Assembly (NCBI RefSeq): GCF_027023985.1 | Contig: NZ_JALVTW010000010.1 | Coordinates: 62,001 to 126,000 of the forward strand | Direction: 5' to 3' | Source: Persephonella sp. | Lineage (GTDB): Bacteria; Aquificota; Aquificia; Aquificales; Hydrogenothermaceae | DNA: 64,000 nt | Notes under the pieces: generated by a model | What the model was told of the DNA's origin: nothing | Database searches by the model: none | The model's input: the letters and a program-made list of their open reading frames with translations, nothing else | Shown: positions 32,970 to 63,301 of the stretch, in pieces | How the letters are laid out: each line of letters opens with the position of its first letter | Position numbering within the stretch: the first letter of the stretch is position 1 | Made by a program: the position numbers and the translations under genes

Positions 32970-33152
32970 AATCATAAATGAAAATTTGTGATTGTTTATC
33001 TCCTCTTTACTTCTATTTATTTTTACCTACGTTGGTAAACAGTTCCCCACATAGGATTTAAGTTATGGTAAAATTTACACAGTCAGTTATTTGGACGGTT
33101 TCTTTGGAAGATTCCTACACTCCCACCACTCTTGAAATCTTTCTACAAATTT

Positions 33153-33458
33153 CTACATTTTATTTTTTAGTTCTTTAGCCATTTTTAAAAGTTCTTTTGC
33201 TGTCTTTAACTGCAAATCAGCTTGATCTCTTCCTGTTTTATGACGCATGGATTTTGTTAATCCTCCAACCATACCTTTCAACTTGTTTATTAAAGATTCA
33301 TCTCCTAATTTTTGAGCCAAATCTAAAAGTTCTCTTGCTGTTTTTAATTGTTCCTCTGCAGGATCACGGTTTAAATTATACCTTGTAGATTTTGTTAAAC
33401 CTCCTATCATTCCTATTAGTCTTCTTATAAGAAGGTTCAAAAGTTCTTCTTTATCCAT
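33153..33458 (-). CDS. Small tandem-repeat protein next to the dynamin genes
   Basis: 101 residues. Two copies of a roughly 38-residue unit are visible: LIGMIGGLTKSTRYNLNRD then EEQLKTARELLDLAQKL, and LKGMVGGLTKSMRHKTGRD then LQLKTAKELLKMAKEL. The copies differ at several positions, so the duplication is old. It is predicted all-helical with a Gly-rich turn. The ATG at 33458 has AGAGGAT eight bases upstream. It is the last minus-strand gene before the dynamin-like GTPase genes and may be cotranscribed with them. No known function. Confidence 0.6.
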   Translation of the reverse strand: MDKEELLNLLIRRLIGMIGGLTKSTRYNLNRDPAEEQLKTARELLDLAQKLGDESLINKLKGMVGGLTKSMRHKTGRDQADLQLKTAKELLKMAKELKNKM

Positions 33459-33581
33459 CCGTATATCCTCTTTATTAATAAAAACTATATTTATTAAATC
33501 TAAAAATTTTATTCTATTCTGCAATCAAAAAAAGCATTCTATCTATCACATTTACACTTTTAAATAAATAAAAAACAAAAA

Positions 33582-34259
33582 TTATTTAAGTTCGTTTTCA
33601 TATTTTAAAAATATTTCATGGCTTCTTTTAAAGAATTCAGATTTATGTTTTTCTATACTAAGATTATCTTTCAACTCTTGTATAGAATTAAAAATATAGA
33701 CATTCTCTTTACTTATTCCTATAAGCTCTAATTTGGTCAAAACTTCTTCGCAAGTCTTGCACAAAACTAAAAAATGAGTTCCTTCTTTTAAGGAAACTTG
33801 AATATAACCAAATTCTATATTTTTATCCAAATATTTTAGAAAAGTTTCCGATGTTGCGTAGTTTATCATTTTAAGCTCATCTATGATTTTTTGTAAAGAA
33901 TCTGTAATTTCCTTATTTTTCGATGTGATTTTTTTGAACTCTCTTACAATATTGTAAAAATTATTTTCTATCTTTTTTATTTCTCTATTTATTTTTAAAG
34001 AAATTTCCTTTCTAATCTTTGTGGCTATCTTTTTCACTTCATATCGAGCTTTTCTTTTGGCATTTGCTTTTTTTCTATCAGGATTATCAAAAAACCAGTC
34101 CCAGATTTTCCTCAAGGCAGATATTACTATTGCAGCTATTCCTACCACCTTTGCAATTGAAAAAGCTGCTATTATCCCTATTACGATAAATATTAAATCT
34201 ACTATTTCCTTAAATATTTCTTCTAGTTTCCACTCAAGTTCTTTTAAAATATTTTCCAT
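33582..34259 (-). CDS. Membrane-paddle and C-terminal fragment of the split dynamin-like gene
   Basis: 225 residues if started at the ATG at 34259, but the frame is open further upstream to the A8 run, adding about 50 residues. A hydrophobic hairpin (DLIFIVIGIIAAFSIAKVVG, then IAAIVISALRKIWDW) matches the membrane-inserting paddle of bacterial dynamins. Lys/Glu-rich helices and a tail containing KTCEEVL follow. Confidence 0.5.
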   Translation of the reverse strand: MENILKELEWKLEEIFKEIVDLIFIVIGIIAAFSIAKVVGIAAIVISALRKIWDWFFDNPDRKKANAKRKARYEVKKIATKIRKEISLKINREIKKIENNFYNIVREFKKITSKNKEITDSLQKIIDELKMINYATSETFLKYLDKNIEFGYIQVSLKEGTHFLVLCKTCEEVLTKLELIGISKENVYIFNSIQELKDNLSIEKHKSEFFKRSHEIFLKYENELK

Positions 34260-34408
34260 TTTGATATTAATTTCGGAAGTCGCGATAGAAACATCCTTTT
34301 CTTTTTTTTGGAAAAATTTGTTTAATACTTTTAGGAGATACCTTATTTTTTCTGCTGTTAAATCAATACGTTTTTTGGTCTTCTGAGAATAGTTTTTAAT
34401 CTCTCTTT

Positions 34409-35026
34409 CTATTTTTTTTCTAAACTTGCAGAAAATAGTTTTTGTCTATACGTTATTTCTTCTTCTATTTTTTTTTCATCGTATTCATATTCGATGGCCT
34501 CATATAAAAACTCTAATAAATCATTCTCAAATTTAGCTATTTCTATATCCGTTATCTTTTTTATATTTTCTTTCAATATATCCTTTTCTTTCTTCAAGTT
34601 TTCTTGAAGAGATTTTATTTCTTCAGTTACTTCTTTTAGCGATTTATCAAGATTTTTCTTTAAAGATAAAATATTCCTTATAACATTCTCCTGGGATTTT
34701 AAAATCTTCCTCGTATAATCCCATGGAATTACTACGTTTTTCCTTTGATTCTCTTTTTTGAGTATTTCTTCAAGAATTCTTATATTTGAAATTTCCTCTA
34801 AATATTCTCTCGTTGAATAATTTTTTAGAGCACTTTCAAAACTTGACTTTAGATTATCTGGGATACGCTTGGCTCTTGCAAAAAAAGCATATAATGCATG
34901 AATTATAAAAATATCTTTAAAAGATTCTCCTAAATACTCTTCTAAATGTTTTCTTGATCTTTCTTCTACTATCTTAATATTGTTTTTTAATAATTTTTCC
35001 AAAGCCAAAGGGGGGGAGAATTCCAC
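34409..35026 (-). CDS. Stalk fragment of the split dynamin-like gene
   Basis: Read alone, 205 residues from a GTG inside the previous fragment. After the C7 run the natural continuation is LALEKLLKNNIKI. The segment is helical with long heptad-like stretches (ILSLKKNLDKSLKEVTEEIK), consistent with a dynamin stalk. It terminates at a TAG made by the A8 run. As a stand-alone gene it has no good ribosome-binding site. Confidence 0.45.
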   Translation of the reverse strand: MEFSPPLALEKLLKNNIKIVEERSRKHLEEYLGESFKDIFIIHALYAFFARAKRIPDNLKSSFESALKNYSTREYLEEISNIRILEEILKKENQRKNVVIPWDYTRKILKSQENVIRNILSLKKNLDKSLKEVTEEIKSLQENLKKEKDILKENIKKITDIEIAKFENDLLEFLYEAIEYEYDEKKIEEEITYRQKLFSASLEKK

Positions 35027-35549
35027 GAATATTTATCAATCCGTATACATATGTATTTTTATTTAGATATTGACGAATTTTTAATAAAGTATTTTTTTCA
35101 GGTTCTTTACTATGAGGAAAGATATAGAAAACAATATGAGCTTTATTTACAGCTTTCCATATTTCATTTTTAACTTTCTTTTCATCTCCTTCAATTCCAG
35201 GCATATCTAACAGTCTTATTTTTTTTCCAAAAGAAAAACTTCTTATTTCTCTTGTAAAATCTTTTACACCTGTTCCTATACTTCTTCCGTCTCCTTTTAT
35301 TAATGCTTCTATTAGAGTGCTTTTTCCAGCATTTGTTTCACCAAAAAATGCTACATTTAAAGTATCCCATTCTAAATGTTGAAATTTTCTTAAATAACTG
35401 CTGAGTCTCTCTATTTCTGTAAATATTGCTTTTTTTAAAGTATCAAATTCATCCTTATTTTCTTCTTGTAAAGATAATTCATATAGAGACTTAGATGAAG
35501 AGATAAATTGATCAACAAGTTTATCAATATCTTGTTTTAATTTTTCCAT
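34974..35549 (-). CDS. GTPase-domain fragment of the split dynamin-like gene
   Basis: 191 residues if read alone. The P-loop GETNAGKSTLIEAL (about residues 70-83) and DMPGIEGDEK (G3) define the GTPase domain. FTREIRSF near residue 98 may be the G2 region. The usual NKxD is replaced by LINIRG, so nucleotide specificity may be relaxed. Translation runs out of frame after NIRGILPP and ends IIKKQY. It starts two bases after the neighbouring dynamin gene stop. Confidence 0.6.
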   Translation of the reverse strand: MEKLKQDIDKLVDQFISSSKSLYELSLQEENKDEFDTLKKAIFTEIERLSSYLRKFQHLEWDTLNVAFFGETNAGKSTLIEALIKGDGRSIGTGVKDFTREIRSFSFGKKIRLLDMPGIEGDEKKVKNEIWKAVNKAHIVFYIFPHSKEPEKNTLLKIRQYLNKNTYVYGLINIRGILPPFGFGKIIKKQY

Positions 35550-35551
35550 CT

Positions 35552-37171
35552 TTAAACTTCCTTACATTTATTTAAAATAACATTTAATTTTTTCAATTTG
35601 TTTAATTGATTATTATAATTTTCATATTGTTCAATCACTAATTTTTCATTCTCTTCATAATCACTAATTACAAACAAAAAGTTTCCTTTCAAAAATTCTG
35701 GATTTGTTTGATTTATTAATTCTCCAAATAATTCATTTAAATTTCGGATAAGTTCATCCTTTTTCTTATCAAACATAATTTTACTTGCCACTTTTCCACC
35801 AACAATTAAAACTTCAATTAATATTCCTATTCCTTTTAAAGCAGTAGAGATTTTTCCTGCTAATTTGGTTGCTCCCCACGGTTTAAACTTAATTGGAAGT
35901 TTAAAGAAATCTCTTGTTTTTAATACCGCTTCAGAAGAAATATTAGCTTTGGATATAAAAGCTCTCAGCATAGGTCCTGCAAATTCTATTTTTTTTACAA
36001 GCTCTAAAGAAAGGTTATCTATCTCTTCATAAGTAAAGTATATTTTTTCTAGGGTATTTTGAACCTCTTTTAAATATCTATACAAAGACTCAATTTCTTT
36101 TTCATATATTTTTTCAATTTGGGTTTTTAATATTTCTGCAGTTTCTGAAGTGCCTATTTCTTTTTGTATAACTTCTTTTAACTCTTTAGCATCAGCAGTA
36201 GCCTGTATATCTGTAATTAAATTTCTTCTTAAATTATCTAATCTTTCCTTAATCCGATTACTAGTCTTAATTAGCTCATTCCTAACTTCATCTAATTCTT
36301 GCTGCAATTCTTTTTTTTGCAATTCTACTTCTTCAAGTTTCATTTCTAACTCTTCAATCCATTGTTCAATTTCCGATTTTATTCTTAACACCACATCCTT
36401 TATAACAGAATCAACTTTCTTTTGAATCAACTCGTATTTTTTCTTTTCGATAATAGAATTTATTATTTTTTCCAATTCTCTGATATTAGATAGTTTTTCA
36501 TATTCTTCTTTATTTTCTAACCAATACTTAATCCCCATTTCCCAAGGATCGGCGACTAAACAAACCACTAAATAGTCTTTTCTTTCAATTCCTAATATTT
36601 GATTTAAGGTAGATACTACTACATCTTTTTTTATTGAACAGGTTTCAGTAAAATCATCTTTGTTATTTATATCTATTCCCGTTTCATCCAATCTGTTTAT
36701 AACAAAAATTGTTTGATCCAATTTACCCAAATCTCTTAAGAGCCATTCTATAGTCTGATGTTGACTTTCCCTCAAAGGATTCATAGCATTAGTTACAAAA
36801 ATAACAAGATCCGTTTCAGATATATATTTTTTAGTTTTTTCATCATGTTCTATATGTTCTGAGAATAACCCTGGCGTATCTATTATTATGTAATCCTCAA
36901 ACAAATATTCTTCTATCTTATCTGTTGTAGGAGCTGGCGAAATCTTTAAATCTGTCCTGTTTAATAATGCAGACAAAATAGTAGTTTTACCATCAGAAAA
37001 TCCACCAAAGAAGACAATTCTGAATTTTTCATCTTTTAAATCTTCTATAGTCCGTTCTATTTTTTCTAACAATTCTTCTACATTCACAAATTCACGTGCT
37101 TCACCGATAATTTTTTTACATGTTTCAAGTTTTTTAATTGATTTACTCTTAAAATCGGAAAATCTTTTCAT
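35552..37171 (-). CDS. Dynamin-like GTPase, intact partner
   Basis: 539 residues. GTPase motifs are complete: GGFSDGKTTILSAL (G1, about residues 56-69), a Thr in PAPTTDK (G2), IIIDTPGLFSE (G3) and VINRLDE (G4). A coiled-coil stalk spans about 240-390 and a hydrophobic paddle lies near KISTALKGIGILIEVLIVGG. The GxFSDGKT loop recalls LeoA and related bacterial dynamins, which usually come in adjacent pairs (Campylobacter DLP1/2, ETEC LeoA/B). Such proteins bend or fuse membranes; some protect against phage. It starts 79 bp from a divergent nuclease gene, so the promoters share a region. Confidence 0.8.
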   Translation of the reverse strand: MKRFSDFKSKSIKKLETCKKIIGEAREFVNVEELLEKIERTIEDLKDEKFRIVFFGGFSDGKTTILSALLNRTDLKISPAPTTDKIEEYLFEDYIIIDTPGLFSEHIEHDEKTKKYISETDLVIFVTNAMNPLRESQHQTIEWLLRDLGKLDQTIFVINRLDETGIDINNKDDFTETCSIKKDVVVSTLNQILGIERKDYLVVCLVADPWEMGIKYWLENKEEYEKLSNIRELEKIINSIIEKKKYELIQKKVDSVIKDVVLRIKSEIEQWIEELEMKLEEVELQKKELQQELDEVRNELIKTSNRIKERLDNLRRNLITDIQATADAKELKEVIQKEIGTSETAEILKTQIEKIYEKEIESLYRYLKEVQNTLEKIYFTYEEIDNLSLELVKKIEFAGPMLRAFISKANISSEAVLKTRDFFKLPIKFKPWGATKLAGKISTALKGIGILIEVLIVGGKVASKIMFDKKKDELIRNLNELFGELINQTNPEFLKGNFLFVISDYEENEKLVIEQYENYNNQLNKLKKLNVILNKCKEV

Positions 37172-37250
37172 TGCTTTTCTCCCTCTATTTATTATGTAAT
37201 ATAATTACAAAAGACAATTTCGGTATAAATTTTACAATATAAAGAATATT

Positions 37251-37868
37251 ATGAATATAAATGAACTCAAAAAAGAACTTGAAGAAAATTTTAAAGAAAT
37301 ATCCTCTAACAATGAAAATGAAGTTATAGACTTCATAATTAGACCAATTTTAGAGTTCTCTCTGAGAGAAAAAGGATTAAAATATAAACCTCATTATGTT
37401 AAAAGAAGTAATCAAAGTGGAAACAAGAATTTTAATCCAGATTTTATTTTGATGAAAAATGAAAATTATACTACCATGATTGAAGCAAAGAAACTAAATG
37501 AAACTTTTAATATTAATAGCTCTAAAGCGCTACTAAAATTTAAGAAAAACAAGTACACAAACGATGATAATGATGTTTTTGGTCAAATGCATCGTTATTT
37601 TCTTTATGCTAAGAAAGAATTAAAAGTAGAAATACCTATTGGAGTTCTAACAAATGGAAAAGATTGGTTATTCATAAAAGGTAAAGATTTTTGTGATTAT
37701 AACAACCTTAAATATTTATTTAATACATCTAAAAAATTTCCAAGTTTATATCCTAAAAATGGTTGGAAAGAACAAATTGAACAAATATCTATCTATAAAG
37801 ATGGAAAAGTTGATAAAGATAGGTTATCTGAATTAATTAATAAACTTCTAAGAATTTTTTGTCATTAA
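37251..37868 (+). CDS. PD-(D/E)XK nuclease, type I HsdR N-terminal-like
   Basis: 205 residues. FNPDFILMKNENYTTMIEAK has the spacing of a PD...ExK catalytic site, and FGQMHRYFLYAKKEL plus PIGVLTNGKDWLFIKG is the HsdR-N signature. Here it stands alone, without the helicase part of type I restriction enzymes. It would cut DNA if active. It is divergent from the dynamin genes with only 79 bp between starts. That and its AT-richness suggest it belongs to the same accessory module. Confidence 0.75.
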   Translation: MNINELKKELEENFKEISSNNENEVIDFIIRPILEFSLREKGLKYKPHYVKRSNQSGNKNFNPDFILMKNENYTTMIEAKKLNETFNINSSKALLKFKKNKYTNDDNDVFGQMHRYFLYAKKELKVEIPIGVLTNGKDWLFIKGKDFCDYNNLKYLFNTSKKFPSLYPKNGWKEQIEQISIYKDGKVDKDRLSELINKLLRIFCH

Positions 37869-38029
37869 TATAGCTTTAGTATTTAAGAAACTGTTTGCAT
37901 AACTGCCGATAGTATAGATAGAGCTGCCTAAAAATGACTATAAACTGTTTGTCTCGTAAATTTAAACGAATAACAAAAACACTATCACGAATAAAACTCT
38001 GTCATTATTCTTAGTATATCAACGAATTT

Positions 38030-61409: not shown

Positions 61410-62402
61410 ATGAAAAGATGCTTATTAGCTGTGGCTGGTTTGGGTTTTTATACTGCTGTTGCACAGGAGCCACAAAAGCCGTTTATACTGGAACATATAC
61501 TTCATAAACATAAGATAAATTTTGTTAATTCAACTGTTTATCAGCAGATAAATGGTTATGGGGCTATTTTTAACAGTTCTCATGTTTTTACATTATTAAA
61601 ATTTACACCTGAAGATGAACTATTTATCAACGCTTCAATAACATTTGGAAATGGAATTACTTACAAACTGGAAAGGGAAGGATATTCTCTGTCTTCAACT
61701 GCAGATGACCTTGAGGATTATCTAAAGGATATTAATGATACAGGCAGAGATTATCTGCTAGAGCTTTATTATCAAAGATATTTCGGAAATTTAACATTTG
61801 CAGGAGGGCTTATAGATTCAACCGCTTATATTGATGCAAATAATTTTGCCAATGATGAAAATACACAATTTTTGAATGATGCTTTTGTTAATAATCCGAT
61901 AGCTGTTTTGCCTTCTTATAATCCCGGTATTTATCTTTCTTACAAGGTTTCCGATACTACCGGAATTTCAGGGGTTTATATGCAGAACAAACCGGATAAA
62001 GGTAATGTCGGTATTGTTGAAATTGAGTATGAGACAGATGATTTTTCAGTAAGACCTTATTACTACTATCTGTTTGGAACTTATGAGGATAAAGGTGCCG
62101 GAGTTTCGGCGGATTATTCTTTTTCAGAAAATACTGGTCTGTTTTTCAGGGGAGGTATATCAAATTCTAACCATGACTATTTTGTGAGTGGTGGTTTTCA
62201 GATTGGTAACCTATTTTTTGACGACCAGATTGGCTTAGGAGTCGGATATGTCCACGGAGATAATACAGAAGATATAACAGTTTCAGAAGCTTACTATAAA
62301 ATAAATCTATCCAAAATGCTTTCCTTTACTGCAGATATTCAATATATGGAAGAAATTAAGGAAGATTATATATACGGAGGAAGGCTGTATTTCTCATATT
62401 AG
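61410..62402 (+). CDS. Porin-like outer-membrane beta-barrel protein
   Basis: 330 residues. A short signal (LLAVAGLGFYTAVAQE, cleavage near residue 19) is followed by a beta-rich barrel: FTLLKFTPEDELFINASITFG, YYYLFGTYEDKGAG, NLFFDDQIGLGVGYVHGDN. The C-terminus YIYGGRLYFSY ends in an aromatic, typical of barrel assembly. It resembles OprB-like or family porins, without a clear substrate. The stop codon overlaps the convergent radical SAM gene by 4 bp. Confidence 0.72.
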   Translation: MKRCLLAVAGLGFYTAVAQEPQKPFILEHILHKHKINFVNSTVYQQINGYGAIFNSSHVFTLLKFTPEDELFINASITFGNGITYKLEREGYSLSSTADDLEDYLKDINDTGRDYLLELYYQRYFGNLTFAGGLIDSTAYIDANNFANDENTQFLNDAFVNNPIAVLPSYNPGIYLSYKVSDTTGISGVYMQNKPDKGNVGIVEIEYETDDFSVRPYYYYLFGTYEDKGAGVSADYSFSENTGLFFRGGISNSNHDYFVSGGFQIGNLFFDDQIGLGVGYVHGDNTEDITVSEAYYKINLSKMLSFTADIQYMEEIKEDYIYGGRLYFSY

Positions 62403-63301
62403 TCTTTTACTATATTTAGGCCAGCCTTCTCTGTATATTCCAATGCATCAAAATACTCTTTGGTTGTGATTCTTCTGTTTAATTCTGGATAATCATAGGC
62501 TTTATAATACGGATGGTATTGTGCCATTATGTTTACATGCATATTAGGTGAAACAGATTTGAGAAAATCAATTACTTCTTTTGACGTGGATATATCATTA
62601 GGCAGAACAAGATGTCTGACCAGTAAGCCCCTGTAAGCTATTCCATGTTCATCTGTTTTCAGGTCTCCTACCTGTCTGTGCATCTCTTTTATCGCTTCTT
62701 TTGCAACTTGAGGATAATTTTTCACCTTTGAGTATTTTCTACCATATTCTTCATTCAGGTATTTCAGGTCGGCAAGATAGATATCTACTATCCCATCAAG
62801 TAGTTTTAAACTTTCTATGCTGTCATAAGAAGAAGTATTGTAAACAATTGGAATTTTAAGTCCTTTTTGGGCTGCTATGTATGTAGCTTCTATAAGCTGG
62901 GGAACAATATGAGAAGGGGTTACCCAATTTATATTGTGGCATCCTTCTTCTTGAAGATAAAGCATAATTGCTGCAAGTTCTTCAGGAGATATCTCCTTAC
63001 CCTCTCCTAACTGGCTTATATCATAGTTCTGGCAGTATACACATCCAAGATTGCAGTATGAGAAAAATATTGTTCCACTTCCATATCTTCCTCTAATTGG
63101 AAATTCCTCTCCATGATGTGGGAAAAAGGAAGCAACATAAACATTTTTACCTGTTTTGCAGAAACCTGTTTTATTATCCAGTCTATTAACTTTACACTCC
63201 CGAGGACAAACTGTGCACTCTAATAACATTTCTTTTGCTTTTTCTACTCTCTCCTTGAGCTCACCTGTTTCAAGGAGTTTTATGTAAGTCGGTTCCCTCA
63301 T
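62399..63301 (-). CDS. PflA-like radical SAM protein (COG1313 type)
   Basis: 300 residues. FFSYCNLGCVYCQNYDISQ contains the radical SAM CxxxCxxC. The N-terminal CTVCPRECKVNR and TGFCKTG add a second cysteine set. HHGEEFPIRGRYGSGTIF is the family's signature. Proteins of this type resemble pyruvate formate-lyase activating enzyme, but no cognate glycyl-radical enzyme is in the window. The target is unknown. The gene converges on the porin. Confidence 0.88.
   Translation of the reverse strand: MREPTYIKLLETGELKERVEKAKEMLLECTVCPRECKVNRLDNKTGFCKTGKNVYVASFFPHHGEEFPIRGRYGSGTIFFSYCNLGCVYCQNYDISQLGEGKEISPEELAAIMLYLQEEGCHNINWVTPSHIVPQLIEATYIAAQKGLKIPIVYNTSSYDSIESLKLLDGIVDIYLADLKYLNEEYGRKYSKVKNYPQVAKEAIKEMHRQVGDLKTDEHGIAYRGLLVRHLVLPNDISTSKEVIDFLKSVSPNMHVNIMAQYHPYYKAYDYPELNRRITTKEYFDALEYTEKAGLNIVKD

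Follow-up and report, generated by a model that had tools for sequence, protein, structure and literature searches.

A predicted LeoA-LeoBC dynamin pair with a disrupted second gene in a Persephonella-like genome

PADLOC-DB places LeoA and LeoBC among defence-system proteins. We take Eleos to be the name that later defence catalogues use for the LeoA/LeoBC pair. The name itself is found in defence surveys such as PMC10482375. In E. coli H10407 the second protein of the pair is naturally split, ahead of Switch 2, into LeoC and LeoB, and a dependence of LeoA on LeoBC is assumed (PMC4159319). The activity of the Cj-DLP1/Cj-DLP2 pair of Campylobacter jejuni requires both partners (PMC6104087), and DynA, a bacterial dynamin of Bacillus subtilis, is reported to give protection from phages (PMC8844932).

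The gene pair and the insertion carrying it

The window, i.e. the whole stretch of 64,000 nucleotides that was analysed, contains genes which, as read from the sequence, are a LeoA-LeoBC dynamin pair with a disrupted second gene (Table 1). LeoA matched its family profile along its length (PADLOC LeoA, PDLC03840, E 1e-95, residues 2-537). It also matched the Pfam families DLP_helical (1e-38) and Dynamin_N (1.5e-13) and the structure of E. coli LeoA (4aur, E 6e-44, 447 residues covered). On the same strand, leoBC begins 2 bp after leoA. The locus resembles that of E. coli H10407 (PMC4159319) in the tandem arrangement of two dynamin-like GTPase genes, in the match of LeoA to 4aur and in the match of the second gene to the LeoBC profile. 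In contrast to H10407, LeoBC is encoded in one frame and not as LeoC plus LeoB in the close relatives of the window, and the breaks in the window are located elsewhere. With the LeoA/LeoBC system of PADLOC-DB the locus shares the matches to both profiles, the adjacency of the genes and the location on a variable insertion, but its second gene is disrupted and a defence role is putative here. The Campylobacter pair is comparable in architecture only. An intact pair would probably work at membranes as a heteromeric GTPase and serve an accessory function such as phage defence.

Table 1. Features of the accessory insertion and of the disrupted gene (window positions)
Feature	Position	Strand	Description	Basis
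Accessory insertion	32976..38013	.	~27% GC; LeoA-LeoBC and two small genes	blastn vs congeners
123-aa ORF	33153..33524	-	visible internal repeat	without Pfam or PADLOC match
leoBC	33582..35549	-	655 codons, two frame breaks, three frames	ORF reading and profile matches
leoBC piece 3	33582..34259	-	paddle plus C-terminal part; ORF of 225 aa beginning at the first ATG of its frame	PADLOC LeoBC 451-590, E 2e-9
A8 run	34412..34419	-	frame break 2, TAG directly after	sequence and alignment to L003
leoBC piece 2	34409..35026	-	middle (neck/trunk) part; 205-aa ORF with a chance GTG start	PADLOC LeoBC 213-396, E 1.5e-17
C7 run	35010..35016	-	frame break 1, after residue ~177	shift pinned by alignment to L003
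leoBC piece 1	34974..35549	-	most of the GTPase domain; 191 aa, last ~14 residues out of frame	PADLOC LeoBC 23-193, E 6e-51
leoA	35552..37171	-	intact, 539 aa, dynamin-like GTPase	PADLOC, Pfam, structure match
Small divergent gene	37251..37868	+	205 aa, weakly HSDR_N nuclease-like	Pfam HSDR_N E 2e-5, just under cut-off

The insertion is 5,038 bp (5.04 kb) long, and its GC content of ~27% compares with ~35% in most of the window. In a close congener (G006) the site is empty: in a blastn comparison window positions 32975 and 38014 mapped to adjacent bases (L124 19091/19089). The same block was found by blastn to be missing from a second congener (G005, L120 18880/18849). LeoBC was present in 4 of the 112 genomes of the order. 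The insertion is thus a patchy accessory element, and this distribution, together with its absence from the two congeners, fits a dispensable gene. No integrase or clear terminal repeat was seen by eye at the insertion, and the 205-aa and 123-aa ORFs had no relative among 60 related genomes. The former, which weakly resembles HSDR_N (the N-terminus of the type I restriction R subunit), is a possible small nuclease, and the latter, an orphan, carries two copies of a GGLTKS..R motif unit. The LeoBC family, the intact LeoA partner and the carrying insertion are additions to an earlier note on this DNA, which had described the disrupted gene.

Two frame breaks in leoBC and its intact relatives

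According to the earlier note, one dynamin gene lies here in three frames with breaks at a C7 and an A8 run, and joining the frames at both runs yields a continuous dynamin of 655 residues. Both statements were borne out, and the frame changes coincide exactly with the two runs. The runs are present on the plus strand as G7 and T8, corresponding to C7 and A8 of the coding strand. Starting with the ATG at 35549, frame 0 encodes the conserved protein as far as C7 and then adds ~14 unrelated residues before a stop at 34974-34976. Frame +1, open from ~35032 to the TAG right after A8, carries the conserved protein between the two runs, and frame 0 reopens at ~34445 and continues as far as the stop at 33582. 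Joined at C7 and A8, the three frames encode 655 residues. The three pieces were collinear on a single PADLOC LeoBC profile in the profile search (PDLC03841), and matches in this order make the split of leoBC more than a chance arrangement. No further stop or shift was found across the 655 codons of the joined gene, which implies that the breakage is recent.

Two other statements of the note were correct in part. The shifts, which it called compensating, are opposite in sign, but they do not compensate functionally, as the middle third in the conserved frame is unreachable from the start. The 148 bp described as otherwise unused do belong to the coding frame; they are ordinary coding sequence immediately before the first ATG that remains in the last frame.

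In the sister genus (G017, locus L003) LeoBC is encoded by one intact ORF of 650 codons, and its product is 54% identical to the joined protein. The two proteins align end to end and without a gap at both junctions. In this alignment NIRG-LP stands before break 1 and ALEK after it, which pins the first shift to the C run. A second member of the order (G107) has an intact LeoBC of 669 residues. Both relatives are read through in a single frame, have neither break and lack the C7 and A8 runs.

An alignment-based scan yielded 80 LeoBC loci, and the comparisons made here use ~80 loci from other bacteria; a scan of named genomes with the joined protein as query gave no match. Nearly all of the ~80 loci had either a single frame or the canonical split at profile position ~130-145, the natural LeoC/LeoB split being found in roughly a third of the LeoBC loci. 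The gene in the window has neither form, its breaks falling at profile positions ~247-255 and ~442-454. The order of the genes, LeoA and then LeoBC, is the reverse of that in nearly all other LeoBC loci: 78 of the 79 loci from other bacteria had the opposite order, and the remaining one was without LeoA in reach. LeoA precedes LeoBC in the Aquificales loci (window, G017, G023 and G107; L003, L026 and L191). A Paludibacteraceae MAG contains a LeoBC split at the unusual profile position ~369-381 (L067:5740-5830), and in a low-coverage Persephonella MAG LeoBC is ended by a stop near the contig end (L026:3930-4104, G023 contig 151).

Sequencing error or mutation

The main rival explanation is sequencing or assembly error: the lengths of both runs would have been wrongly called, and LeoBC would be encoded by an ordinary intact gene. 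It is favoured by the location of both breaks exactly within homopolymers, by the lack of any other lesion in the gene and by the composition of leoBC, which is rich in runs and has only 26% GC. Orthologous ORFs from 694 kb of the genome were set against those from 880 kb of the close congener G006. Of 303 matched ORFs, 290 were intact across at least 93% of their length, the comparison being blind to frame breaks in the outer 7% of genes. In the ~290 kb of the assembly's conserved coding DNA that this covered, no homopolymer frameshift came to light. The single ORF in two frames was rejected as a frameshift, as it proved to be a 10-N scaffold gap.

Long runs, defined as A/T runs of at least 8 or G/C runs of at least 6, numbered 54 in the intact conserved coding DNA (43 A/T8, 1 A/T9, 9 G/C6 and 1 G/C7), and none was broken. 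In leoBC two of five were broken (hypergeometric P ~0.006), this run control being indirect, as the AT content of the insertion exceeds that of the compared genes and its coverage could have been poor. The neighbouring leoA is intact and keeps two A/T8 runs in frame, and an A9 run within leoBC (34468-34476) is also intact. Since conserved genes would reveal errors but not disabling mutations, this difference speaks for genuine mutation of a dispensable gene, and we regard miscalled runs as unlikely. The earlier note had listed phase variation, slippage, decay and sequencing error as options; decay emerges as the best supported of these, whereas sequencing error is disfavoured by the clean assembly. 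In G006 (L123-L188) about eight ORFs have frame breaks where the genome of the window has intact counterparts. These may be errors or real pseudogenes of G006, and one of them corresponds to window positions 62399-63301.

We assign a probability of roughly 0.6 to the reading that the LeoA-LeoBC pair was acquired recently and horizontally by a Persephonella-like Hydrogenothermaceae genome and that LeoBC is a young pseudogene. The pair, of the Leo or "Eleos" type, would have arrived on the AT-rich insertion. Replication slippage under relaxed selection would have produced two single-base indels, one in the C run past the GTPase core and one in the A run in the trunk. The indels would be real in the DNA of the cell, and the pair would now be inactive because LeoA needs LeoBC. 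If break 2 is the loss of one base, leoBC would once have held another A9 besides the one still present. The 694 kb contain 112 A/T runs of length 8 but 4 of length 9, a drop that fits avoidance of slip-prone runs of 9 bases (PMC1088944). Indels of this kind may be expected in a foreign AT-rich gene that holds unusually slip-prone runs and is under little selection. On this view a small insertion would have brought a LeoA-LeoBC pair into a deep-branching thermophilic lineage, in which the pair would have decayed via homopolymer slippage, a common fate of accessory genes. The picture would be that of a marine heat-loving bacterium with a borrowed membrane-bending dynamin pair, the damage to which is most likely ordinary recent mutation involving no special decoding.

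Recoding, switching and natural fission

Transcriptional or ribosomal slippage at both runs could restore the frame in part of the products and thereby yield some full-length LeoBC. The A8 run and the TAG that follows it (GAA AAA AAA TAG, 34412-34419) contain the slippery heptamer A AAA AAA, a site of the A_AAA_AAA type, on which the earlier note had proposed a -1 slip. The A9 run of Thermus thermophilus dnaX is decoded by RNA polymerase slippage, and the A8 run of a human gene yields about a tenth correct product (PMC1088944). Like dnaX, leoBC is a gene of a thermophile and changes frame at a poly-A run; the run in the window, however, has a length of 8 and is not shared by relatives, and a further break, opposite in sign, would have to be overcome. 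Selection against slippage in many genomes is evident at length 9, not 8 (PMC1088944).

Downstream of A8 the predicted fold was no better than that of shuffled sequences (z 0.42), and the same was true downstream of C7 (z 1.37). The intact relatives retain neither run. Moreover, the shift at C7 is opposite in sign and needs a +1 event of its own, so that two inefficient events would both be required. Taking these observations into account, slippage yielding some full-length protein is very improbable, and the proposed -1 slip found no support. A programmed -1 frameshift was rejected, as there was no downstream fold and the site was not conserved. An extended version, in which both runs are real, slippage at each, in transcription or translation, gives little full-length LeoBC and double slippage decoding lets the thermophile tune or gate its dynamin defence pair, is highly improbable. 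A frame restored by slippage would, if real, be an unusual way to control a membrane GTPase, and nothing here speaks for it.

The C7 and A8 runs might also serve phase variation, as contingency tracts whose changes in length turn LeoBC on or off. G/C runs of at least 7 are rare, with three in 694 kb of the genome, and the G7 in leoBC is the sole one in the window. The tracts are short, however, the frame would be restored only if both runs changed together, and such tracts are absent from the intact relatives. Nor did the 694 kb contain a set of long G/C tracts of the kind expected of a switching system, the longest runs being 7 for G/C (three) and 10 for A/T (two). Switching of this kind appears very improbable.

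A naturally three-piece dynamin with each piece separately initiated could be imagined from E. coli H10407 and others, in which LeoBC is divided into LeoC and LeoB (PMC4159319), but it is scarcely credible: the canonical split lies at ~130-145, before Switch 2, and was rejected as an explanation because the breaks lie here at ~247-255 and ~442-454, the GTG with which piece 2 begins is located within the overlap, no ribosome-binding site was seen by eye at either internal start, and such a dynamin would lack 148 bp of the conserved frame.

Past the end of the PADLOC profile, the Aquificales LeoBC proteins carry a C-terminal tail with the pattern FGYIQ..L/I.EG...C...L..KL...GI..NI.I/F (window 33582-33900; ends of L003 and L191). 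In the sister genus G017 the pair adjoins a 390-aa ORF (L003:3720-4892) containing an LDLTHGFRS stretch that is, by eye, reminiscent of CRISPR-associated Csx/CARF proteins.
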